NCBI RefSeq assembly: GCF_026210795.1
Contig: NC_089458.1
Location: 2,062,001-2,126,000, forward strand
Origin: Rhizophagus irregularis
Taxonomy: Eukaryota > Glomeromycota > Glomeromycetes > Glomerales > Glomeraceae
Direction: 5' to 3'
Length of the DNA stretch: 64,000 nt
Both the position numbers and the translations under genes were made by a program. Below the pieces are notes generated by a model. The model made no database searches, was not told where the DNA came from, and was given only the letters and a program-made list of their open reading frames with translations. Below, piece after piece: positions 1 to 48,421 of this stretch (the first letter of the stretch is position 1; each line of letters begins with the position of its first letter).

Positions 1-1665
1 CCAATACCACAAGACAAAAATTTTATCTAAACTTAATGCAGCGGTTCTTTCCTTCGCCGAAGTAAAGTTTTTATTAACAAATTATATTAAGATCAACAAG
101 CTATAATCGTTTTCTTATCTATTTAACATGTGAAACCCAAAAAACTATCGCAAGAAAACCACGTTGACATTCCGCTCTTCCCAATACTCATTTGTGACAC
201 ATTAATTTCTTCTTTATTGATATGTACGATACAAAAATATCGCTGCTTTTTCTTATCACACATTTATTAAACCATTTAAGAAAAGAACCAATCAATTAAT
301 TTAATATATGCTAGTAAAGCGAGAAATACAAGAAAGAAAAGAGAGGAGAATGATATAAAAAAAATATCCGATATATCCGATATAATTATCAGTGAAACAT
401 TATGAGACACAACATAAAATTTGACACGCGAGAATTTCATATTCCGAATATATATATTTTGTGTATCATTAAATCTTCTATAGTACTATTTACCCGCGCA
501 AACTACCTACAGTCTACAATTTATCCACGTGTTAAAGAATGATGTTGATTCTTAGATTACTTTTCCAACGTGAAATGTCAAATGTCAACATAAGAATAAT
601 TTTATGATATACGAAAAAAATAAATTGATTTATAGCAAATTTCGCACTGATCATAATAACGTCAATAATGTCGGATGATACATAATTTTAGAATAAAAAA
701 AATATTTCATATTTATTACATCAGTGACCTAAATCATCATTGGGGGGATAGAGTATTTATACGCAGTAAGAATGTAAGCTCTGTTTGGCCGAACATAATG
801 AAATTATCGTGTAACATGCATTTGATCAACGTACGTTAGCAAGGGAAATACTTAATACTTTTAAGGAAATTTCATTAAACCCAAATTTTTTGATATAAAG
901 TATTAGACCGTTTTTGGTTTTTGTTATAATTAAAACTTTTCCTTGCGTCGGGATTGTATTTAAGCCGAAAATTGGTGTAATCTTTTGAGATTACCTTATC
1001 TTATTAAGTTATTGCTCTCGCTACGACTTATTATGGTCTTGTAATATGGTTCTGTAAGTTTCAGAAAGTTACATTCTTATCTATTAAGACTCATTGTTTT
1101 ACCCATTTGCTTTAATAATTTTATCATATGATAATAAACAGTATGACTTAATTAACCAATTTAAGTAAAATCCAGCCAAGTATAACCTGTCAAATTTGTA
1201 CTGTGTATATAATAATGTTTCATAAAATTTATATTTATTAAATTTATTAAATTTGTAAATGTATTATTTTTATTTATAGATACAAGAATAATACCTATAT
1301 TTTCTAAAGTTACATTTCTAAATTACTTTCATTAATTTAAATCAAAATAAAATATATTATTATTATATTATATTATTATTAATTAATTACTAATACTTTA
1401 TTAGAAAATAACTACATTTAACCAGTGGGCAGAATTATATAATTCCTAGTTAAACTTCAAAACTGGATTGTACTAGAATTAACACAATTCTTTGCCTGCT
1501 TAATTTTCCCTTCTGTTAAGATTAATAATACTTATTTTGTTAAATATCTATATTTTAGCATAATATTTACTTAATTTGGCTTAATTAAATACAATTTTCC
1601 AAATGGTAAAAAAACTAGAATAATAAAAATATTAATTACAAAATTTACTATTTTATTTTAAGGGT
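1..1665. other. Gene-free AT-rich stretch
   Basis: I see no reading frame of useful length, no family resemblance and no repeat array here. The sequence is AT-rich with many A and T runs, as in the other intergenic parts of the window. Confidence 0.6.
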
Positions 1666-1800
1666 ATTGCTAAATATCACCAGTGGTGACAGTCACCAGT
1701 GGTGGATTTATGATGTAATGCCGGTTAGTATTTTATTAAATTTTAATTCAGGCCAAAAGTGCATCTTAATGGACAATCACCACTGGTGAGCTTTAGCAAT
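1666..1800. mobile_element. Short TIR element (MITE-like), 135 bp
   Basis: The left end reads ATTGCTAAATATCACCAG and the reverse complement of the right end reads ATTGCTAAAGCTCACCAG, each followed by TGGTGA. The word CACCAGTGGTG, itself palindromic, occurs twice at the left end and once at the right. There is no coding content. Flanks on both sides are T-rich and similar, but I could not fix a target duplication. Confidence 0.6.
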
Positions 1801-1982
1801 TTTCTTATTTTTAAAAGGAGAAATAGACTTTCGAAAACTAAATATTAAAAGGAGAAATAAGATTTATCAAATCATATAACTATTATACATAAAGTTCAAA
1901 CCATGTCAAATATTATGGCACATTACATCAATTTAATATTATACTAGTATATTAAAGATATAATATGTAATTATTTTTAAAA

Positions 1983-2013
<31 letters not shown>

Positions 2014-2655
2014 TTGCAACTATTATAATATATATATACCATTTTTATTATAATTACAATACAGTATTATAATTATTATATAATATTATAATTACTTTTT
2101 TTTTATTATAATTATAAAAGTAACTAAACTAAACTTCTAAAACAAAATAAACTACAGTTAATTCCCTTTATAGTCACTTCTATTATAGTCATATTCTACT
2201 ATATAGTCACACCAGTCAGATGTTTAAAACACTTTATTATTAAAATTTATCCCATATAGTCATAATCTATTCCTATGCTAAATTTTATAATATTTTAACT
2301 ATATTATTTATGTAATACGAGTCTATACGAGTTATTTTGAGTCGCATATACGGAACATTCACTAGTTGAAATAATAAAATTTGACTTTAATAAAATTTGG
2401 CCTATATTTGACCAAATTCAAAAAAAATTCGATCTAAGTATATATTCAACATTGTTGAATTATGGTCGAATAGCATATTATAAAAAAATATGTAAAGTGT
2501 TGATCGCATCGCATTACGTATCACTCATGTACTATGTAATTAAGTATGATTAAAAGTTTAATTTAAACTTTCCTTCGTCCTTTTTTCTTTATTTTTTCTT
2601 TTTTCTTTGTCCTTCTCCTTTCTCTCGTTCCTTCTTTTACTTTTTTAAAAAACTT
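1801..2655. other. Gene-free stretch with a TA microsatellite
   Basis: A (TA)n run lies at about 1987-2013. From about 2570 the sequence turns T/C-rich and leads into the first intron-like array. No gene was recognised. Confidence 0.55.
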
Positions 2656-3394
2656 TTATAAAGTTTATTTTATTTTATTTTTTTTTTAGGAAATTAGCTC
2701 CGAAGTTTAATATTCTAATAAATATTATTAACTTTTCTTTTTTTTCGAATGCATTAGGAATGGCCTCTTGGAACGATTTCGTACTAAAAATGTGAAAAGT
2801 GCGGAAGGTTAGTATATTCATTTTTTTTTAAAAAAAATTTTATTATTGTTTTTTACTTACCTTATTCTTATTTTTTTAGGAATGGTCTCTTCTTTCGGAA
2901 TGGTAATCAGGAATAGAGGTAAATGGAAAGTAGGTCAGCAGGTGTATTGGTGTGTTTATTGTAATTAAGAAACGTTTTAACGTTTCTCTTCTTTTCATAG
3001 GATACTATTAAGCAAGCTGAAAGAACTAAGATTCATCATAAGTATTACGAATCTTATTTTTTTCATTTTTTTTAATAAAGTGTAATGGTTCACTAAACGT
3101 TCTTATTTTTTTTATTATATAGTGAGCTTTCAAGAATGGAAAAAGAACTAAAATTTGTCGTAAGTATTGCAAATTTTGGTCTTTTTGTTTTTTTTGATAT
3201 TATGGAACAGTTTACTAACTGTTTTTATTTTTTTTATAGGTTTTGGTGAGCTTCTAACGAATGAAAGAACCAAGATTTGTAAGTAAGTACAAATCTTGGT
3301 TGTTTTTCTTTTTTTTTTTTAAGATTGTGAACGATTACTAACCGTTCATTTTCTTTTTTTAGGTCTCGGGTGTCTCTGATGAATGGAAGAACTA
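2656..3394 (+). repeat. Microexon/intron-like array, subfamily 1, left part
   Basis: Seven or so units of about 120 bp. Each has an exon-like block that starts after a T-run ending in AG (acceptors near 2689, 2758, 2879, 3000, 3121, 3240 and 3362). Each block runs 30-45 nt, often with a GAATGGAAGAAC-like core, and ends at a GTAAG-type donor. The donor sits in an inverted repeat: at 3269-3300, ACCAAGATTTGTA and its exact reverse complement flank a 6-nt loop AGTAAG. A second inverted repeat (GAACGATTACTAACCGTTC near 3328) holds a CTAAC branch-like motif before the T-run. The array is cut at 3394 by the TA-flanked element and resumes at 7154. No continuous protein can be read, so splicing is inferred from the signals only. 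Confidence 0.6.
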
Positions 3395-3419
3395 CATCGG
3401 AAAATTTTTTAAGATGCAG

Positions 3420-3690
3420 AACTGCAAAGATCTGTAAAATTAGCAGATCTCTGCATTTTTTTTTGTGAATTTATGCGAAAGTCTGCGATTTTGCAGATTT
3501 CTGCTTTTTATTTTTTACAAAGTTGTGCAATAATCTGCAATTTTGCAAGTTTCTGATTTTTTATATATGAATTTCTGCGGTAATCTGTGATTTTGCAGAT
3601 TTCTGCTTTTTTTTATGTGAAATTTATGCGGAAGTCTGCAATTTTGCAGATTTTTGCTTTTTTTTTTATTAAAATATCAGTTCGATCTGC
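3420..3690 (+). repeat. Subterminal GCAGATTT repeat of the TA element
   Basis: About five imperfect units of roughly 60 bp, each with a CTGCGATTTTGCAGATTTCTG-like core (split here from longer sequence) and a T-run. Related words (CTGCGCAGATCTGC, AAATCTGCACAG) occur at 6950-7135 next to the other end. Such subterminal repeats are typical transposase-binding regions; the binding role is inference. Confidence 0.55.
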
Positions 3691-4049
3691 AATTTCATCA
3701 TTAATTTAATATTTAAATTTTGATTAACTCTAACTTGATTTAATACCTAAATGATTTTTTCTACAATACTCTTTAAAAAAAAAAACTTTACAAGACTTTA
3801 AAAAAATAATTTTTTCTACAACACCTTTTAGGAAATAATCTGTTAAAGATTCCAAAGAAAAAATATTTCTATTATTTTTTAAACTTTGAAGCTTATCAGA
3901 GAAATTTTTTTTTTAAAAAAAAATTCATTTGCAAAGTTCAGAATCTTTAAGGCAAATTTGTCCAACATTCGGCACATAATCTGCAACATGCAGAAGTTTC
4001 AGACTAAAAAGATGTCAGACTCCTTTATCTCCTTTTAAAAAATACATTT

Positions 4050-6660
4050 TACAGAACGCTGAAGGTACTCTATTTCGAAGGTATTTATTACTTTAATATT
4101 AATATTATTTAACGAACATTAGAAAATGTTTGTTTTATTAGTTTTATTAGTCCAGAACACAAAAGGTACATCCTGGACTCCATTTCAAAAAAAAAAAATT
4201 TAATGAAACATTAGCTAAAGTTCATTTTATTTTTTTTTTGTAAGTCAGAACACTGAAAGTATCAGTTCTGAACTCTATTTTGAAGGTAGAGCTTCGAAAC
4301 TAATATTTTTTATATACCAGATATTGTCCAACGTTCAGTTTTATTATTTTCTTGTCCTGGACACCAAAGAACAGCTCTAGACTCTTATTTCGAAGGTAAA
4401 ACCTTTACCTTTGAAATTTTTTTATATTTTGTTTAACAAACGTCGCTAATATTCGTTTTTCATGTTTTTAGATCCTGGCGCCAAAAAACAGCTCCAGACG
4501 TTTATTTTGAAGGTAAAATTTACCTCCGAATTTTTTTTATTTTATTTATACCTACGAACGTTAATTTACGTTCATTTTTATATTTTATAGGTTCTGGACG
4601 CTAAAGAATAGCTCCAGACATTAATTTCGAAGGTAAAACATTACCTTCGATTTTTTTATATTTATATTTAACAAATGTCGCTAAACGTTCATTTTTATAT
4701 TTTATTTAGGTCCTGGACGCCAAATAATGGCTCCAGACTTTTATTTATATTTAACGAATATTATTAACGTTCATTTTTTTGACTTTTTAAGTCCTAGATA
4801 CCGAAGAACGGCTCCAGACTTATTTTCGTTTACCTTCAAATTTATTTTTAATTTAACGAACAGCAGTAATATTCGTTTTTTTTTATATTTTAACTTTAAC
4901 GAACATTACTTACGTTCATTTTTTCAAATTTTTAGGTCCTGGACGCTGAAGAATGGCTCTGAACTCTTATTTCGAAGATAAATCTTCAAAATTTTTTTTT
5001 TTATATTTATATTTAGTGAACGTTACAAACCGTTCATTATTTTTATTTTTTTTAGGTCCAGAACGCCAAAGGTATATTCTGGACCCATTTGAAGGTTTTT
5101 ATTTGAAGGTAAAACCTTCAAATTATTTCTTTTAATTAATTTATTGATAAAACGATTTTAAAGTTTCATTTTTCTTTTTTTAGGTAAAGGAAGCCGAAAC
5201 AAATTCCAGACGAAGGTAAAACCTTCGAAAATTTTGTTATTATTTTATTTAATAAAACATTTTCTAACATTTCATCTTTGTATTTTGTAGGAACACGGCT
5301 TTCTGAATGTTTTCTGGACAGTATTTCAAAGGTAAACTTCGAAATTCTGTTTTTTTTTTATTTTTATTTAAACGAAACGTTAGTTAATGTTTTAGTTTTC
5401 TTTTTTTTTTGTAGATTTCAGTACTCCAAAGGTTCCCAAAACTTTAAAACAGTAAGTTTCGTAAGTTCGTTACGAATCTTATGTTTTTTTTTATTTTTAT
5501 AAAAGAACGTTTCTAACGTTCTTATCTTTTTTTTGTAGGTTTCGGTACTCAAGATCTCTGAAACTTCAACATGGTAAGTTTTGTAACAAACTTTTCATTA
5601 CGAAACTTATTTTTTTTTATTTTTATAAAAGAACGTTTCTGACGTTCTTTATTTTTTTTTTAGATTTTTGGCTCTTCAATTCTGTCTGGACGGAATTTTG
5701 AAGGTAAAACTTTAAAATTCTATTAGTTTTTTTTTTTATTTAATGAAACATAGATTAATATTTCATTTTTCCTTTTATTTGTAGGTTGACGGCTTCCCAG
5801 AGGCTCTGGACGGAATTTCGAAGGTAAAATTCCTTTGAAATTTTTTTTATGTTTTTTATTTAACGAAACGTTTCCTAACGTTTCTTTTTTTTTTGTAGGT
5901 CTTCGTCATTCCAGATACTTCCTGGAAAGAATTTCGAAGGTAAAACTCCAAAATTCTTCATATTTTTTTTTTGTTGCTTTTAATTTACAAAACGTTTACT
6001 AACATTTCAATTGTTTTTTTTGTAGAATTTTTGCTCTTCGACTCCTGAACAAAAGAATTTCGAAGGTATACTTTGAAAAAATGTGGGGTTTTTTTATTTT
6101 TATTTAACGAACATTAATTAATGTTCATTTTCTTTTTTATTGTAAGGCCCTAAGGCATTTACTTCAAAGATAAAAACCTTCAAATTTTTATATTAATTTT
6201 TATTTAACGAATGGTATTAACGTTCGTTTTATTAATTTTTTTAGGTCCCAGATGCTGAAACCAGTTCTGGACTTTACTTCGAAGGTAAACCTTTCGAAAA
6301 TTTTATTTTTTTTAATATTTTTATTAACGAACGTTAACTAACGTTCGTGTTTCTTGTTTTTTAGGTAAAGGAATCTGAAAACAAGTTCCAGGCTTTCATA
6401 TTGAAGGTAAGACCTTTGAAATTTTCTTTTTTTTTTATTTTTATTTAGTAAACGTTAATTAACATTCGTACTTCTTTTTTTTTTAGGCAAAGGAAGCCAA
6501 AAATGAGTTCAGGCTCCCATATTAAAGGTAAAACCTTTGAAAGTTTTTATTTCTTTAATGAATTATTTGATGAACGTTAACTAACGTTCAATTTTTTTTA
6601 GGTCTACGGCTTCTAGACAAGTTTTTGAATAAGATTTTAAAGTAATCTTTGAGGTAATTA
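4050..6660 (+). repeat. Microexon/intron-like array, subfamily 2, about 23 units
   Basis: About 23 units with a mean spacing near 116 bp. Well-preserved exon-like blocks are 4472-4512, 4591-4632, 5184-5215, 5291-5331, 5415-5451, 5539-5573, 5664-5703, 5785-5823, 5899-5939, 6026-6065, 6245-6284, 6365-6406 and 6487-6527. Almost all are 32-42 nt, start after T-run-AG with G, and end AAG followed by GTAAAA. The donor lies in an inverted repeat (TCGAAGGTAA / TTACCTTCGA at 4627-4650; ATTTGAAGGT / ACCTTCAAAT at 5101-5123). A second inverted repeat (ACGAACGTT-AACT-AACGTTCGT at 6327-6348) contains CTAAC and precedes the T-run. Some units have lost the donor (4978) or the acceptor (4350). Exon lengths vary, so no long protein is encoded as it stands. 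Confidence 0.65.
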
Positions 6661-7153
6661 CTTTGAAATTCTTTTACCTTTTTTAAACAAACTTTATACT
6701 AATGTTCGTTTTTCTTTTTATTTTATATAGATTTTTTTTTCATTTTGCTAGTTGTTTGTTGGAATTGAACCAACTGGAACAATGTCCAAACCATTAACAA
6801 CATGTAAATATGCAGTAAAGAGATGATGAATAGCAATGACTAGTAATAGATTTCAATTGTATTTGTAAACTTGTTAATATATAATAAAAAAGTAATTTTG
6901 ATTATATAAATAAATTAGTAATTAATGCAATAAATTAATTTGTATTATTGTAACGCAGATTTTTACTGAAAAAAATTGCTAAGGTATTTCGAAGATTTTT
7001 TATTTAAAAATCTGCACAGAACTTTGTTATTTATAAAATCTGCGCAGTTTTTTATTGGATTTTTCTCTAATGTTTTGCGCCAGGGTATAAGATCTGTGCA
7101 GATATAATTTCTGAAAATCTGCGCAGATCTGCTTCCCAAAAAATTTCCTGATG

Positions 7154-7280
7154 TAAGATTCGTAAGTAAGTATGAATCTTGGTTGTATTTTTGTTTTTTT
7201 TATAATTATAGAACAGTTTACTAACCGTTCTTTTTTTTTAGGTCTTGGGTGGACTTCTAATGGATTTTGTGAGTATGAGT
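7154..7280 (+). repeat. Microexon/intron-like array, subfamily 1, right part
   Basis: This continues the unit interrupted at 3394: AAGATTC and GAATCTT flank a GTAAGTAAG donor. GAACAGTTTACTAACCGTTC follows near 7211-7230, then a T-run and AG at 7230-7231. The exon-like block after it (GTCTTGGGTGGACTTC...) closely matches the block at 3363. The SAM-like pseudogene begins shortly downstream, so these blocks may be its 5' exons. Confidence 0.55.
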
Positions 7281-7442
7281 GAAGATGATGCAGATTATGT
7301 TATTATATGGAAAACCTATTTGTGTCAATAAAGTAAGCGGAAACATTTATTTGATAGAGAAGAAGAATCTAATTGAGAAGTTAGTTTGGTTTTATTGTTT
7401 GCTATATAGCATTAATGTTTTGTTGTATTATTATTATGCAAA

Positions 7443-8790
7443 CCAGATAATCAACAAAAGTTAATTATCAAATCTGAAAAAGTCTCAAGTTCTATTATAG
7501 TCTTAGCAGACGAAATCAAAAAATATAAAACAGATGCTCTTATCAAATTTTTAAAGAGAGAAGAGAACTTGGAGCTTAATGACGATGACTTGAAAGGTAT
7601 TCGCGAAGAAAAAGTTAATGGGTGTGACTTTCTCAAGTTAACTGAAAAAAAGCTTAAGCGGCATAAAATAAAACTGAGATCTGCATCAAGGCTTGCAGAC
7701 TTCATTAAGGAGTGTAAGAAGAGAAAGAAGCGCTTATTTTTCTCGTATAAGACTCAGAAAGACTTAAAAGAGATATTAGCAAAGTATGGGATTGATGGTA
7801 ATGGGATAGATGCAATCTGTCAATTTCCATCAAATGAGTCCTATCTTCTCAGTTTATTATTCACAAACTATTATGTGAGTTAATGGGCTAATTTTAATGT
7901 TTCACTTTCTAGAAACAAATACACTCAAAGATGATGATGAGGAATTGGAACAATGTATAAGGGAAATAAAATACAGGTTGGAAAATATGGGGACTATTCT
8001 TGCCGATGGCAATGAAGCCATGCAGTGCAAATATATTTTGGTTATTTTTCATACTTTGCTATATTGTCAAAAGAATAACAAATAAAGAAATTACTTTGGC
8101 TTTCCAGTTAGAAATTGTTGGTAAAGAAAATACCGGTTGAGTAGAATCATGCTTACTCATAATAAAGGTCACTATAAAAAATTAGCCTTTTACTAATAGT
8201 TTTTACCTTACTTTTTTCTTAAATTCTATTGGTTAATTAGCTAAAAAGGAAAAAAATCATAATAATGTAACATAAAATTTCCTTTTATAGTAGAATCTGC
8301 AAAGAATTTTATATATGATTTTTACGCTAGCCCGCAGGGTGCCTATCTTATAAGTAAGTGGAGTTCTGGTTGAGTCGATTATACAATCAAGGCTTTTAAG
8401 GAACTTATTTGCATTACAGAAAGGAAATTATATCAAGTGGTCATTGGCTTTGCTCAGAATCTGGTCCAATGCGAAAGTGTGTTACAAGTAAATAAAAATA
8501 AGAGAAAACGTAAGTCAGGTGATGCATTCAAAGATGACTTCAACTATATCTATCATAGAGTCGTTATAATAGCTACGGACTGGTATTTCATCCTTTATGC
8601 TTCAGACAAAATATACTGTACAAGTAAAAATCCTTTTAATATCTGATTTACTGAGTCTACTTTAAAAGAGAATTCAGAGAAATAAAAAGAGTTGTGTAAA
8701 AATGTGAAGCGAGTGATGGAAGTTATTATTAGGTTATTGAAGGATAGGGTAGATGTTGAGAAGAAACCAGTGATGTGATGAAGAAATAAC
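7443..8790 (+). pseudogene. SAM-domain-like gene, multicopy Rhizophagus family, broken
   Basis: The frame 7443-7883 reads as a helical SAM-like domain, with LNDDDLKGIREEKVNGCDF then LTEKKLKRHKIKL and SRLADFIKECKKRK, followed by the motif KYGIDGNGIDAI. The frame shifts near 7875-7912 and continues as ETNTLKDDDEELEQCIREIK and ADGNEAMQCKY. It shifts again near 8030 (VKRITNKEITLAFQLEIVG) and meets a TGA at about 8137. After an intron-like gap the match resumes at about 8337 and runs through VIGFAQNLVQCESVLQVNKN and ATDWYFILYASDKIYC to KNVKRVMEVIIRLLKDRV near 8760, with more stops. I know this arrangement from a large Rhizophagus family of unknown function. SAM domains generally mediate protein-protein or RNA contacts. 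With at least two frameshifts and several stops it is not functional. The 5' exon is not resolved. Confidence 0.7.
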
Positions 8791-9049
8791 GAGTTTAAGA
8801 GTATTTTGAAAGAAAAATAATCATATATATATATTAGATAGAAATTTTATGTATACGGGTTGCTTGTAATTTATTTTTGAGATGCTTTATTAATAATTTA
8901 TCATTGACTCATTGTAATAAATTAATAAAAAATTTGTTTTTCATTATAGAACAATTATAATAATTCTTTATTTTTACTTCCCTTTTTCTTGTCTTTTTCT
9001 CTCTATTTTTTTTCCTTTTCTTTTCCTTTTCCTTTTATGGTTGGTTCTT

Positions 9050-9930
9050 TGGTTTTTACTACTTGGTCACGAAATTTTGGTAAGTCATTTTTTTTTTTTA
9101 ACTTTTTTTAATGAATTGTTTCTAAAAGTTCATTTTTTTCTTTTTAGGTAGTTTTCTCAATCTCTTTAAAGTTTAGACTCAGATCTTAATAGGTGAAAAA
9201 ATTATTTTTTACTTTTAATTTTATTTTAACGAACTTTATACTAACAGCTTGTTTTTTCTTTTATAGACAACTTGTTTTTCAGGATACTTGGATGCATGGG
9301 AATTTGGTAAGGGGGTTATTTTTTTAATTACTTTGTTTTTCTCTTTCTTTAGTCAGTTTTTTTTCTTCAAGGTCTTTGCCTTTTTGAACACGCAGGCTAC
9401 AACTTCGTTTTTTAGGTATTAGTTCAGCTAGATTATTTTCAAGTTTTTGAAAATTAGTTAGTATTCTTGAATTATTTTGTGAGGCTTTTTTTGCTTTAAT
9501 ATTTAACGAATTACTAACAATTCTTTTTTTAGGCAATTTTTTTCCAGATATTATATCAGTGTGTAATAAAAAATGTATTTTTTCTTTAGTTTTTATATTT
9601 AAACAATTATTAATTGTTCATTTTTTTGTTTATTTTTTTCAGACGATTTTTTGAATATTTAGACATGGGATATCGGCAAGTAAAAAACAAAAAAAAAATA
9701 TTTCAATTTTTTTTATATTTTAATGAACATTAACGACTTTTTTTTTCCTTTTTTAGACACATTTTTCGGGTATTTGAACATGGAATATCATGTAGGTAAA
9801 AAAGAAACAATATTTTCATTTTTTTTAATTTTAAAATACATTATTATTAATTGTTCTTTTTTTTCCTTTTTTAGACAGTCAATTCTTGATTTTTTTTGTA
9901 AACCTCAATTTCAGTACTTGGTAATTTAAC
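9050..9930 (+). repeat. Microexon/intron-like array, subfamily 3
   Basis: Six or seven units with acceptors near 9147, 9266, 9531, 9642, 9756 and 9875, all T-run-AG, and exon-like blocks such as the one starting ACACATTTTTCGGGTATT at 9757. Donors follow as GTAAGT or GTAAAAAA. The mid-spacer inverted repeat is AACAATT...AATTGTT at 9602-9618, differing from the AACGTT type of subfamily 2 by paired changes. Reading frames through the blocks are short and inconsistent. I see the same module here as at 2.7-6.7 kb, with diverged exon sequence. Confidence 0.55.
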
Positions 9931-10213
9931 ATAACCTGACTTTGACTTCTTAATGAACTTGAAATTTGTGAGTATTTGTCTTCTTAAACATGAATCTCAT
10001 ATGCGCTAATCTACACCGTAACCCTAAATTTTTGAGATAACCCCAAATTTTTATAGCCAATAATAATGATGGTCAATCATCTGACACATTTAGCGTCACC
10101 AAAAGTTACTATGCAGTATTTTTCAGATTTTCCGTTATTCATAGTACTAAAGCGATCTGTTGCACAATTTTTTAACGTCAACTTTTTTATTTTACGCGTT
10201 TTACTGTATTTCA

Positions 10214-13200
10214 ATGTCAAATTCTAAGCAAAGACCTTATGAGCAGGAAAACTATCTTGCTTCACCTGAAATAATATATTATGGTGACCGGAAATTTAAC
10301 TATACTGTTATTCAAGAAGGTGTCTACCCACCAGTTGCGCAATTGAAGTTTACAGAAGCGCCTAATTATTTTCCTGTGCCTGACAATTATATTATTAAAA
10401 CTACCTGGGGCTGGTCTAATAACTGTCAAATTATTCAATGTTCCATATATTATATAGAAGGTAATCCACATTACTTAATTTGTTTTGGAAATAATTTTCA
10501 GCACCAAGTTGTTTCAGTTCAATCTACATTTGATTATAGTTGTTTCCGAAATTCAATTGGCAAATCCGAAATCCGAAATTACGAAATCGTAATTAATTAC
10601 GTATTCCGAAATTCTGAAATTTGCATAATAGTGCGAAATTGCGAATATCTCGGGATCTAGTGATCAGATTTTGATGATCTTACTACCATTCGATTCGTCT
10701 CATCGAGACGAATCTAATAATATGTGTTTCATTTCTATAGCACCGATATTGATGGAGTTAATTTACTATAAACATTTAATGAATTTTTGTGTCGGAGCAC
10801 GATCTAGTGATTAGATTTGAATGAATTTACCACCATTCGATTCGTCATGACGAGACGATTCTAATGGCGGTAAGATCATCTTTCTAGCATTGAAATTGAC
10901 GGAGCTATTATGCTATAAATATTTAAAAGTTATTGGTATCGGAGCGCGATCTAGTGATTGGATTTAAATGATCTTACTACCATTAGAATCGCCTTATCGA
11001 GACGAATCAAATGGTAGTAAGATCATCCAAAACGGATCACTGGGTGCCGAGTTATTATTTATTAAAGTTTTTATATATAAATCGGCAAAAATTAAGGCTA
11101 ATTCTGGCCAAATATTTTCGTAATACGAAATTAATTACGGAGTCCGAAATTAATTACGGAATACGGAGTTTTTCTAATGAATTACTTAATAATTACAGAA
11201 TTACGTAATTACGTATTTCCGTAATACTAAAATAATTTCGGACACAAGTATACATTTGATGCTTCTGTTGAATTACATAATGTAAGTTTTAATTCAATTA
11301 TATTTTTATTTTTTGTATAAGCTCGCAAAGAAAATGATTTAATATGTAATTATTTTATCAGATAATAACTCCAAATAAGAAAATTGCAGTTTCTGGAGTT
11401 CATCTCTATGGACTTCAATTAAAATGTATTGATAGAAATCGCAAAAGCAAACCTAAAACTACATGATGAATCAAGTAAAACTACACAAATCAGACATACT
11501 AAAGGTCTTGCAAAATGTGCACAAATAAACTTTGAAAATTCAATTCAAAATTACTACAATTTTAAAGACCGCGTTGTCTTAAAGACATTGGAATTTACTG
11601 TACAAAATAAGGATTATTATACAACATTTGGAGAAAAAACCCCTAATAAGCAAAAACAAAAATTGCAATCAGTGGTTTGTATACAAGATGTAGAAAATGT
11701 TCCACGCGATGCATATCGCTATTTTGCAGCTATGGAATCAAAATTACCTTGGAAGTATGCTGTTTCTCAAACTCGTCGAGATTGATGCACGATAGGAACA
11801 ATTAATACCAATTAATTTTGTTGACTTAACTCCTACTATTACACCCGATTTTTCAGAAGAACCTGATATAACTGATCCGATAATTGTTGAGCAAGTTAAC
11901 AGTGCAATTGGTAAAGGTGCATATCGGAGTATTAAAAAAATTCTTAAATATATAGTACCAGCATATATTCAAAATGAAAAATTAGATCCAGCATCGCCAA
12001 TTATTCATCTTCGTATCTCTGGTGATGGTCGTAACGTTGGATGAAAGGTAAAACACGTTATGATCACTGTAGCATTATTAGATGATTCAGCAAAACTTTT
12101 TGAGCCAAATTACCATTATACAGTTGTTCTTTTTCCAGGAACTGAAAATTATTCAACCTTAAAAACTAAATTGCAGCAGATACTCTTATTCGAGAATTGC
12201 AAGAGCTGAGTAGTATTAGAATGGTCATTGATAATATAGTTTGGAACTTTAAGCTTTATTTTAGCTCTGATTGGAAGTTTCTTGCCACCTGCTTGGGTTT
12301 TAATGTGGCAAACTCCAATTATTTTTGTCCATGGTGTGAGATAGCTAAGAATCAACGTGGAGATAGGCAAACTGAATGGATAATTAGTAAAAAGATGAGT
12401 ATTTTGAATGAAAATCCAAAAGCATATCCAGGTCATCACTCACCTCCACTTTTTAATATGATTCCACTTGACCATTATGTGCCAGATAAACTCCATATTA
12501 TATTGCATATTACTGTTTGTTTATGGGAATTAGTGCTACAAGAAATCAAAAATGAGGGATTATTTAATGATATAACTCGAAATATTATAATTAAAGAGAT
12601 GGAAATTTTAAAAATCCGTTTTGAATTTTGGAAGATTCGTAATACTGATAATTGGTGTTATACTTCCTTGATGGGAAATGATAAGCTTTGTGTTCTTCGA
12701 AAATTTAATTTGGCTAAGCTTTTTGATCCAAAACGTGCTGCATTAATTAGAAGCTTATGGAATGGATTTGCTGAATTGTATGACCTTTTGGGAGAAAGAG
12801 AAACAAATTCACACTATTTTCGCTTAAAAGCAAAAGAATGGTATGAGTTATTTTTAAAAAAAACTGTGGTGAATCCTGAGACTAATATTATTTTAGTACA
12901 AGGACTTTACCGATCCTTAGATTTAACTCCTTATATTCATATCTTAGTGTCGCATATTTGGGAATTTATGCTTAAACATCAAAGGTGGGGATTAAATTCT
13001 TTTTCGTGCAGTGCTGTCGAAAAGAAAAATCATAATCATGTTTCTTATTTTTTCGTAAAACTCTTAAAAATGGTGGAAAGTTTTAAAATAAAACTTCAGC
13101 TATTCGAGAGATTATGGAACATGAAAATCGGCTTTTTTTTTATACTCAAAATAATATTCCTCTTTCATATCCTAAACCTCAATATATTCATATTTTATAG
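10214..13200 (+). pseudogene. Uncharacterised multicopy Rhizophagus family, broken by insertion and frameshifts
   Basis: The N-terminal part starts at ATG 10214 (MSNSKQRPYEQENY) and runs to an inserted element at 10535. It resumes at 11261 (ASVELHN), with an intron-like GTAAGT..CAG to about 11361. The frame then continues through 11429-11785 (DAYRYFAAMESKLPW) to a TGA. Downstream are further stops or shifts (IHLRISGDGRNVG near 12030). The best-kept part is 12197-13045, with a CPWCEIAKNQRGD zinc-like motif, PLDHYVPDKLH, and SFSCSAVEKKNH near the end. A last frameshift near 13045 lets the natural end be read at 13200. I remember the same order of motifs in many Rhizophagus proteins of unknown function. 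The copy number and the Cys-x2-Cys motif suggest a mobile-element origin, but I cannot name a domain. Confidence 0.65.
10535..11250. mobile_element. 716-bp TIR element (MULE-type MITE)
   Basis: It is flanked by the direct repeat TACATTTGAT (10525-10534 and 11251-11260). The ends are inverted repeats: TTGTTTCCGAAATT on the left against TTGTGTCCGAAATT from the reverse complement of the right. Joining the flanks restores the host reading frame as QSTFDASVELHN. Inside are three tandem units of about 150 bp (10655-11050), each with GATCTAGTGAT, a hairpin around CGATTCGTC/GACGAATC, and TAGTAAGATCAT-like words. The 9-10-bp duplication fits Mutator-like elements. There is no coding content. Confidence 0.75.
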
Positions 13201-13535
13201 ATTTTAATGTTTTATATAGAATATTTTTGTAAATATATTAATATTTTTTGGCAATTATTGCGATAAAAAAAAAATATTGTGTATTTATTTATAAATCAGT
13301 ATGACAAAATTCGCATCACTCTATAATAAGTTTAAATTTATTTTTGCCGTTGTACTTAAAATATATTTAGAAATCAATTTTTATTTATTATATATACATA
13401 CGTGTGATAAAAAATTTTAATAAATTTTCCACTAATAAAACAATTTAAAAATTCTATAAAAATATCTATTTAAATTTGTTTTACCCAAAAATGCATATAT
13501 ATAAAACCCGCTTCACAATAATTTTCTTTTGCATT

Positions 13536-41554: not shown

Positions 41555-42426
41555 ATGTCCTCATCTTCAACTGATTCAACCACCGTCAATGATACCAATA
41601 CCATCAATGTCAATACTACCTCCATTTTCGACACTATAACTTATTCTTCCGGCCGGGTGGAGTGGGTCGGATGACCAAATCGCAGTTTTGATTGAGCAGC
41701 GGAGGTCAAGAAACTTCGAGTACCATTATCAAATTGCAGGAAGAAGTAGAAAAAGATTCTGGAATTCCGTTGCGAATAAAGTAAATGAGAGGTGTGGAAG
41801 CAATTATTCGGGCAAACAGTGCCAAACAAAATTCAATGGATTAGTGACCAGTTATCACGTGAGTTAAATATTAATAAAAATTTGTTGTAATAGTAATTTT
41901 AATACTTATTTAACACTTAATACTTTAGGATCAATTATTAGTGATTGCAAACGATCCGAGAGGGGCAAGAAGCCGTGCTGGTGCCATTTATTTTGAAGTC
42001 ATTTGAATACACGGTTTTGGGAAAAACCAGGTAAGCTAACTTTTAAATCTAACAACATTACATAATCAACAAAATGATTATATTAAAGAGGTAAATTGTT
42101 TTATTTAATATGATTTAATATGTTTCTAGATGATCAGTTTGTACAGGCTTCAATTGGTGTTAATAAAACTCAACACAGACGAAACAATAGAAGGAATGGT
42201 ATGTAAAGTATAAAAGTTTAATCAAATTATAAATTTTTATTGATTTTCTTAATATTTTATAGCACGTGGAAGCCAGAATACTCAAAATACGAATACGAAT
42301 ACTCAAAATACAGAAGATCGAAATGGTAAGTACAAAATTTATTAATTTTTTTTTCTTTTTTAGTCGTAAATACAAAATTTATTAATTTCTTTTCCTTTTT
42401 TAGTCGATGATGATAATAATGAATGA
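41555..42426 (+). pseudogene. Myb/SANT-like gene in the CACTA element
   Basis: It starts at ATG 41555 with a Ser/Thr/Asn-rich leader (MSSSSTDSTTVNDTNT). A one-base shift near 41650 is needed to reach the SANT-like trihelix, WSGSDDQIAVLIEQRRSRNF, GRSRKRFWNSVANKVNERCG and CQTKFNGLVTSYH. Intron 1 is about 41859-41930. The second exon (DQLLVIANDPRGARSRAGAI) needs another shift near 41997 to read NTRFWEKP. Later exons read DDQFVQASIGVNKTQHRRNN, RGSQNTQNTNTNTQNTEDRN and DDDNNE-stop at 42424-42426, with GT..AG introns between. This domain organisation is abundant in Rhizophagus and is typical of transposon-linked DNA-binding proteins. The two shifts argue for a pseudogene. Confidence 0.65.
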
Positions 42427-47235: not shown

Positions 47236-48421
47236 AGGACCCCGAATAATACTGATATAACTCACAAATGGGTTTGCGTAGAGTTTATATGAAATTACTT
47301 TTTAAACCCATAAATTGAGTTTGCGTAGATCGGTCAATTTTGGGATAACTCACATATCACGTTTGCGTAGAGTTTATAAATATATTGCATTATATGTTGA
47401 TCAATTGTATAATATTGATAAAAATTAAGTTGCGCAAAACCATTAAGGATGGGTCAGTAATATATTTATGAAATTTGCAATATTACGGATTTTGGTAATT
47501 AATTGTATATAGTAACAAAAAGTAATGCATTTCGCATTATTTTAATATTTTTTAATAAAAAAAAAGTGCGAAATGCACTACTTTAACAAAAAATGGTGAA
47601 TTTCGCACCATTTTATTAACATTTTAATAGAAAAAAGTGCGAAACACACAATTTTAATAAATAATTGGTGAGTTTCGCACCATTTAATTAATATTTTAAT
47701 ATAAAAAAGTGCGAAACGTACCATTTTATTAATATTTTAATAGAAAAAGTGCGAAACGCACCATTTTATTAATAATTTAATAGAAAAGTGCGAAACACAC
47801 CATTTTAACAAAAAAATCGGGAGTTTCGCACATTTTATTAATATTTTAATATAAAAAAGTGCGAAACGCACCATTTTAACAAAAAAATGGAGAGTTTCGC
47901 ACCATTTTATTAATATTTTAATATAAAAAAGTGCGAAACGCACCATTTTGACAAATAAATGGAGAGTTTCGCACTATTTTATTAATATTTTAATATAAAA
48001 AAGTGCGAAACGCACCATTTTGACAGAGTTTCGCACCATTTTATTAATATTTTATTATAAAAAAGTGCGAAACGCACTATTTTAACAAATAAAAGGTGAG
48101 TTTCGCATGATATTATTAATATTTTAATAGAAAAAGTGCGAAACGCACCATTTTAACAAATAAATGGTGATTTTCGCACCATTTTATTAATATTTTAATA
48201 GAAAAAAGTGCGAAACACACTATTTTAATATAAAATGGTGAGGTTTGCATGATTTTATTAATATTTTAATAGAAAAAATGTGAAATGAATTATATTAGTA
48301 ACAAAAATTTTTTTGAACTAAGATTTGGATTTGCGTAGCGTTACTATGAAAAAAAAGTTGCATAGAGTTAATAGTAAATGCATGCTGATCATTTGTGAGT
48401 TATATTAGTATTATTCGGGTC
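47236..48421. mobile_element. 1.19-kb TIR element filled with a palindromic satellite
   Basis: Direct repeat CTAATGGAAT at 47226-47235 and 48422-48431. Inverted ends are AGGACCCCGAATAATACT on the left and GACCCGAATAATACT from the right; both continue as RATATAACTCACAAATG. The 9-10-bp duplication suggests a Mutator-like element. A related end is seen at 51730 and at 63892. The core is the satellite at 47520-48290. A TAAGGATGGGTCAGTAAT word at 47447, like the hAT end, suggests a further nested piece. Confidence 0.7.
47520..48290. repeat. GTGCGAAACGCACC satellite
   Basis: About ten units of 75-80 bp alternate AAAGTGCGAAACGCACCATT and its partial inverse AATGGTGAGTTTCGCACCAT, separated by TATTAATATTTTAATA. 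Each unit can fold on itself. The inverted pair GTGCG/CGCAC is retained throughout. Confidence 0.75.

Follow-up and report, generated by a model that had tools for sequence, protein, structure and literature searches.

Tandem intron–microexon modules, probably spliced, carried by DNA transposons of Rhizophagus irregularis

What kind of element repeats, in three arrays on one strand, a tiny exon-like block followed by what reads as a complete intron? The question is raised by positions 2656-9930 of a 64,000-nucleotide stretch of the fungus Rhizophagus irregularis (contig NC_089458.1; G000:C30:2062001-2126000), hereafter the window, part of a genome of 146.7 Mb in 32 contigs. The original prediction held that a whole intron–exon module, defined by RNA structure as well as by splice signals, had been amplified there. 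We put at about two in three the probability that the arrays are noncoding, gene-like transcription units, probably spliced, which were amplified within non-autonomous DNA transposons. The structure and the transposon nature of the arrays are well supported; what they do is a guess. The finding goes beyond an ordinary minisatellite and differs from the RNA-structured module first proposed.

The repeated plus-strand unit comprises a short exon-like block, a donor inside a first palindrome, a CTAAC-like branch site inside a second palindrome, a T-run and AG. A strict caller, in which a branch-like pentamer must lie within a hairpin of at least 5 bp and be followed by a T-run and AG, reports 15 plus-strand sites in 2600-10000 and 1 on the minus strand, compared with a mean of 1.6 and a maximum of 3 in 30 first-order Markov resamples of that segment. 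With a relaxed 3'-splice-site caller, acceptors number 40 on the plus strand of 2640-9930, a density of 5.5 per kb; the density is 0.8 per kb on the minus strand of that segment, and outside it 1.4 per kb on each strand. The relaxed calls, some of them possibly false, number 7+1 in array 1, 23 in array 2 and 6 in array 3. The predicted unit plan is thus present, and the predicted count of more than 30 units is about right once degenerate units are included; a donor within an inverted repeat was found in relatives of arrays 1 and 2, but not in those of array 3. Related loci elsewhere in the genome are designated by L and a number.

2690..3394, plus strand: array 1, first part (86-88% identity to L019/L020)
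7154..7290, plus strand: array 1, second part, which completes the interrupted unit and adds one intron and the following exon (from alignment to L019/L020 and relaxed calls)
4050..6740, plus strand: array 2, intron and microexon modules, with 19 profile-matched units from 4354 to 6720 plus degenerate ones
6731..6950, plus strand: presumed terminal exon with AATAAA-like signals, by analogy with L023/L026
9080..9880, plus strand: array 3, weaker intron/microexon modules, the element borders not being found in the window

A 3759-bp transposon interrupts array 1, and arrays 1 and 3 are separated by other sequence. A profile of 15 array-2 units identifies 21 units in the 1501-12000 piece of the window. 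Two of these 21 belong to array 1, at 3265 and 7131 (E 6.8e-5 and 8.5e-6), and the arrays are therefore related, with modules common to the two transposon families described below. Applied to 22 loci and the window piece, the profile detects 353 units on the plus strand and 4 on the minus strand, with 16-26 units each in 17 of the 23 sequences. The pattern CGTAAGTACGAATCTTGG occurs at 101 sites in the genome and TTACTAAYNNNCGTTCTTT at 442, the reversed-pattern controls at 0; modules in the genome number in the hundreds.

These modules are dispersed because they are cargo of transposons with terminal inverted repeats (TIRs). Array 2 offers the clearest view, as similarity between loci begins at about 3395 and stops at about 7153, where TIRs are flanked by a target-site duplication (TSD).

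3395..7153, plus strand: nested non-autonomous Plavaka-type element of 3759 bp, assigned by its TIRs, TSD, empty site in L019/L020 and ends like those of L039
3395..3410, plus strand: left TIR CATCGGAAAATTTTTT (CATCGGGAAATTTTTT in several other copies)
7138..7153, plus strand: right TIR AAAAAATTTCCTGATG (AAAAAATTTCCCGATG in several other copies)
3393..3394: TSD TA, left copy
7154..7155: TSD TA, right copy
3443..3669, plus strand: subterminal tandem repeat of about 50 bp (GCAGATTTCTGC)

The loci L019 and L020 contain array 1 without the 3395-7153 element, and window positions 3142-3392 and 7155-7497 align to L019 1457-1705 and 1707-2047. Since both loci align across the insertion point, the element has jumped into a microexon of array 1. 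By eye, the window array counts one additional unit ahead of the insertion point compared with L019, and an alternative alignment of the repeats runs to 3372; the empty-site match rests on sequence, not on unit number. Equal 2-bp flanks are present in nine of the 12 elements having both CATCGGG-type ends (TA in the window and L009, AT in L001 and L003, TG in L010, TT in L012 and L016, AA in L014, AG in L017), and unequal ones in L005, L015 and L018. All 12 two-ended elements match the unit profile. Genome-wide, ends were scored for 40 of 96 left and 40 of 199 right candidates, and 28 end pairs were formed. One of these, C27 (13.4 kb), was false and was dropped because L041 has its own right end; the 27 credible pairs span 3.3-10.3 kb and are defined by their ends, with arrays verified in the 12 two-ended elements. 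The left halves of L016, L017 and L010 carry a further sub-array type, with exon GTTCCGGATGGAACC..TTCGGAG and donor palindrome TTCGGAGGTATGCTTACCTCCGAA.

The array-2 termini CATCG..CGATG share four of five bases with the CATCA..TGATG of Plavaka-B, which makes TSDs of 2-3 bp (PMC12730594), and the 2-bp TSDs of the array-2 elements fall in that range. Plavaka is particularly prevalent in several Rhizophagus irregularis strains (PMC11075540). None of the 123 listed Plavaka transposase matches lies inside the 27 credible pairs, as judged by eye. The array-2 element would be at most a non-autonomous Plavaka relative.

A partner with the same ends is L039 (C6:2508101-2515276, flanks AA). The ends agree at 91-96% over about 270 and 170 bp; against L015 the identity is 91.8% over 269 bp and 94.2% over 172 bp. 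On its minus strand L039 carries a match to the Plavaka transposase (E 2.9e-20) that is interrupted by one in-frame stop; a single translated transposase piece alone scores under the Pfam cut-off. Another locus with the same ends, L041 (flanks GA), has no Plavaka match among the matches listed. The array caller reports three hairpin-bearing sites in L039 and three in L041, versus 14 in L015 and 14 in L010, and the inspected stretches of L039 and L041 hold, instead of an array, gene-like sequence and an AT-rich palindromic repeat. This tandem repeat (TTCTTTGAAATAC) lies in the 3' part, at about 6710-7080 in L039 and about 6390-6820 in L041.

Relatives of array 1 sit in a different kind of transposon, with CACTA termini and a 3-bp TSD as in CACTA/EnSpm elements. 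One end of such an element is seen in the window, and its right end was not found there.

2360..2375, plus strand: left end CACTAGTTGAAATAAT of a CACTA-type element, matching the left end of L019/L020 (CACTAGT..ACTAGTG, flanks GAA)

Both ends are present in five of the eight CACTA-type loci, all five with CACTAGT termini and matching 3-bp flanks (CTA in L021, GTA in L023, TAT in L026, GAA in L019 and L020). In the fetched pieces of L024, L025 and L027 there is a right end only, and in that of L022 neither end; 40 of the 91 candidate left ends were scored. The clearest design, by eye, is that of L023, with a CT-rich leader, a purine-rich exon and 18 called exons of 22-51 nt. Its GTAAGT donors lie in palindromes of up to 14 bp, and TACTAAT stands at the tip of a 9-bp palindrome, followed by a T-run and AG. 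The last exon carries AATAAA in L023 and L026, and L023 also contains an array-2-like unit (by eye). The long early exon of L023 and L021 has purine-rich repeats such as GAAAGGGGAAGC, which resemble splicing-enhancer sequence. At 900-1800 of L022 (C4:2978800-2982000) we observed tandem units with exon GGAACGGGTCTCTTCTCTTGGAACGG..GCGGAAG, 72-76% like the first exons of array 1. The genome has at least 155 Transposase_21 matches; the candidate CACTA partner L042 has neither terminus within 3 mismatches. One Transposase_21 match, C6:4406211-4406657 on the minus strand, begins about 130 bp past the right end of L026. As for array 3, its relative L029 has CATCAGTAAATTTTTT termini (CATCAGT; CATCA..TGATG) with AT flanks, and the relatives L028 and L030 have a left end only.

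Within the elements, the GT donor, branch site, T-tract and AG of a spliceosomal intron follow in order and in one orientation, and on these signals the array units are likely to be transcribed and spliced. In the 357 units selected by the profile, conservation is 93 and 97% at the donor GT columns and 72, 94, 94, 98 and 82% at the branch C-T-A-A-C columns, compared with a column mean of 73%; the palindromes are partly conserved too. In the CACTA family, with a signal caller that requires GT and YTAAY, 69 of 92 donors read GTAAGT and 85 of 92 branch sites TACTAAC or TACTAAT. Loci of chaperonin genes, which overlap in part, served as controls: the array caller detects 21 units in L015 (8 kb) vs five in about 29 kb of these loci. 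In 24 chaperonin-loci introns called under laxer rules the signals are weaker, partly an effect of that caller (some of the 24 calls are probably not introns), and no branch hairpin is present, the branch arms giving -1.47 kcal/mol for own, -1.48 for swapped and -1.47 for shuffled arms.

The two arms of the palindromes change together between units. The original prediction named covariation under R-scape among its checks; we compared each unit's own arms with permuted arms in 500 permutations, with relatedness outside the model. Of the two outcomes that together would have left an ordinary minisatellite, the lack of covariation did not occur. The rows were units with at least one neighbour (209 of 256 in array 2, 87 of 92 in CACTA, 27 of 38 in array 3); those with neighbours on both sides number 119, 65 and 15. 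In array 2 own versus permuted arms gave -6.46 vs -5.13 for the branch palindrome (z -10.5) and -6.05 vs -4.53 for the donor palindrome (z -11.8). The corresponding values were -9.94 vs -8.73 (z -9.0) and -11.78 vs -9.43 (z -10.6) in CACTA, and -5.57 vs -3.63 (z -5.5) for the array-3 branch palindrome. Thus none of the 500 permutations matched the pairing of own arms, whether in the branch palindrome (three families) or in the donor palindrome (two families). Within-locus arm swaps agree with this result, and a first version of the test (200 of 256, 92 and 38 units) had the same outcome. On the chaperonin loci (array caller, n=5), branch arms gave -1.58 vs -0.80 permuted (12 of 500) and donor arms z -0.5 (169 of 500). 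A column-based covariation analysis (MAFFT, 42 branch hairpins) was set aside, since loop lengths differ and 3' arms fall out of register.

Covariation of arms is not the same as RNA structure. We used a mirror test, in which G:T mismatches are tolerated in plus-strand RNA and A:C mismatches are not; the test is weak if most mismatches postdate insertion. In none of the three families, nor in the four-copy majority (3 vs 8 and 14 vs 12), was G:T significantly commoner than A:C. The counts in CACTA are 6 vs 5 for the branch and 19 vs 19 for the donor palindrome, and in array 3 they are 6 vs 5 and 20 vs 9, the last (p 0.06) coming nearest to a wobble bias. Near-equal G:T and A:C is as expected for DNA palindromes; the arms therefore covary, and nothing points to RNA. 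Of the predicted module, the amplification, the spliceosomal signals and the covarying palindromes stand, and RNA structure as its defining feature is not supported.

The reading of the arrays as noncoding, probably spliced units inside transposons has to be set against several results that weigh against it. A 14-bp stem over a donor should hinder splicing. The array-3 donor arms pair at -1.47 vs -2.44, worse than all permutations, and the array-3 relatives lack a donor palindrome; the donor arms of the 24 chaperonin-loci introns (laxer caller) pair better own than swapped, -3.95 vs -2.96. In array 2, G:T vs A:C mismatches number 62 vs 73 in the branch and 76 vs 81 in the donor palindrome. The longest frame is above the 95th percentile of base shuffles in six of 14 array-2 chains, and 42-nt exons have fewer stops in frame 0 (6/1050) than in the other frames (44/975 and 27/975). 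We ascribe the frame-0 deficit and the long array-2 frames to shared descent and composition, but they could also be a relic of a coding past. Between four copies that share one order of units, divergence is 8.6% in exons vs 5.8% in introns, and GT or AG is lost in some copies; present copies therefore look unconstrained, having decayed after insertion. Among these four copies, transitions make up 79% of differences in exons and 63% in introns, and gap openings are fewer in exons (3.3 per kb) than in introns (8.6 per kb). An early branch matrix locked onto CGAAC, the 5' arm of the palindrome, and the exon/intron divergence, array-2 frame, codon-position, SP7 and array-2 stop-triplet tests rest on that annotation.

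Could the microexons instead descend from a host or effector gene that transposons captured and multiplied, with a source gene that still encodes a repeat protein? In favour of this, every type-A exon measures exactly 14 codons and most are free of stops in frame 0, array-2 exons hold about half as many TAA and TAG triplets as the shuffles do (TGA is not reduced), and some CACTA copies have long open spliced frames (257 aa in L023, 194 in L025, 183 in L026). But exon lengths vary without frame maintenance, and no frame is kept across the exons. In none of the 14 array-2-type chains is the longest frame above the 95th percentile of exon-order shuffles (L005 and L016 equal it); of the six CACTA copies, L026 is exactly at that percentile, L023 and L025 are near it, and L024 and L027 fall below the median. 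Stop triplets are depleted relative to dinucleotide shuffles (37 vs 61.6 in CACTA, 281 vs 407.6 in array 2), but nearly as much on the reverse complement (25 vs 47.3 and 274 vs 358.3). With CpG-type dinucleotides excluded, codon positions 1/2/3 vary by 0.030/0.049/0.065 in 43 exons of one type, a slight third-position excess, and by 0.148/0.125/0.085 in 32 exons of the other, the reverse. On the frame-shuffle (array 2 and CACTA), stop-triplet and codon-position tests we reject coding arrays, with reservations, and a captured gene seems to us quite improbable. Another candidate origin is the SP7-like effector genes of Rhizophagus, noted for their tandem repeats, likely from the same genus and with proteins built of repeat units (PMC11333574). 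Their motif Y[KR]Rx[AP]x[AP], which stands at repeat ends, was sought in the spliced array-2-type chains translated in three frames (11,507 residues, CACTA exons excluded) and gave 0 hits, and in the accessible part of that source a conserved intron precedes the first repeat and no per-repeat intron is mentioned. We reject this origin on the absence of the family motif from the array-2-type chains and give it next to no credence.

A process at the DNA level deserves more weight, although we consider it unlikely: an ancestral exon–intron segment would have been tandemly copied in transposons as a palindromic minisatellite, with palindromes made or kept perfect by template switching or cruciform processing and splicing irrelevant. 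It would account for the near-equality of G:T and A:C mismatches, also in the four-copy majority, for the lack of a kept reading frame, and for the other palindromic tandem repeat in L039/L041. It fits poorly with donor GT and branch TAA columns above the column mean, with the near-consensus signals of the CACTA family (bearing in mind what its caller requires), with 353 of 357 profile hits on one strand, and with the AATAAA end exons of L023 and L026. Hairpins might also serve as precursors of silencing small RNAs, and the species is reported to have small RNAs and DNA methylation at transposons (PMC8647823). In the four copies, 129 of 356 two-state columns are CpG-type transitions. The stems seen, about 6-16 bp, are short for a Dicer substrate, and there is no wobble bias; we regard this origin as very unlikely.

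Micro-exon genes of schistosomes and bicycle genes of aphids have many tiny tandem exons and are protein-coding; the exons here are likewise tiny and tandem, but no frame is kept. Bicycle genes of aphids are named in PMC11333574. The array-2 elements resemble Plavaka-B (CMC class) in their CATC..GATG termini, 2-bp TSD and ends common with an element that has a Plavaka transposase match. They differ in showing no transposase, in a fifth terminal base G rather than A, and in a body of intron–microexon arrays, unmentioned in the accessible part of the Plavaka-B source (PMC12730594). The array-1 relatives share CACTA termini and a 3-bp TSD with non-autonomous CACTA/EnSpm elements, but have a body of up to about 20 tandem splice modules, and no transposase-bearing partner was delimited. 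In schistosomes, transcripts of the CACTA-superfamily element SmTRC1 are alternatively spliced, and 2-bp flanks were seen for 7 of its 14 copies (PMC1636069). We found no published description of such arrays by title and abstract start, in a search that left most subscription literature outside, so that absence is unproven; the word 'intron' occurs 0 times in the main text of two Rhizophagus transposon papers (PMC8647823 and PMC11075540). Sister stwintrons of Hypoxylaceae are sequence-similar introns multiplying in a fungal genome, but they are nested twin introns at new gene positions, and tandem microexon arrays are unmentioned in the accessible text. What moves in the present case is the whole multi-intron element and not a single intron.

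Introners, which occur in fungi too, are repeated single introns. Those of Micromonas and Amoebophrya share with the present modules repeated introns, inverted repeats and a resemblance to TIR transposons (PMC7789003). What recurs in those organisms is one intron at a time, set in host genes and carrying its inverted repeats at either end; in the present case many introns and microexons lie inside a larger transposon, with palindromes on the donor and branch site. The Amoebophrya introners are the nearest published idea that we found (PMC7789003).

We propose that two families carry the modules, a Plavaka-type family (CATCRG termini, 2-bp TSD) with array 2 and at least one array-3 relative, and a CACTA-type family (CACTAGT termini, 3-bp TSD) with the array-1 relatives. 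The clearest copies may be read as gene-like noncoding units that open with a pyrimidine-rich leader, continue with as many as some 20 introns, each about 80 nt long, between microexons of roughly 22-57 nt, and close with an exon containing AATAAA. Tandem duplication inside elements would have multiplied the modules, transposase from array-less partners would have spread the elements, and splice competence was presumably favoured while they were active. Ready splicing might lower visibility to RNA silencing or harm inside transcripts. A fuller form of this idea is tentative, and we hold it to be rather doubtful: the transposon body would consist of amplified, optimised intron–microexon modules, related ones in at least two transposon families, kept because splicing of a noncoding transcript protects the element (by camouflage from RNA silencing or by harmlessness inside genes) or occupies the spliceosome. 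If the arrays are spliced, transposons here carry and propagate finished introns and microexons in their hundreds, from which new introns and exons might arise, and they offer a natural set of multi-intron substrates whose donors and branch sites lie in palindromes. If they are not, DNA palindromes preserve unused splice signals, a warning for structure-based RNA gene finding. The array elements may be part of the repeats reported as unclassified in this symbiont (PMC11075540).

Around the arrays, no flanking open reading frame has a Pfam match above cut-off, and an Rfam scan of 1500-11000 gave 0 matches above the gathering score. Between arrays 1 and 3, 7416-7883 and 8374-8646 are open stretches with no Pfam match above cut-off; downstream of array 1 in L019 there is, by eye, a kinase-like fragment. 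Further along the window, 12170-13207 is a 345-aa open frame with FCPWCEI, transposase-like by eye and with no Pfam match at E 0.1. Two tandem copies of a 40-bp unit at 42326-42406 read like a minimal intron (GTAAATAC...TTTTTTAGTC), and 47530-48285 is another palindromic array, about ten copies of a repeat of ~72 bp with the inverted repeats GCACCATTTT and AAAGTGCGAAA.

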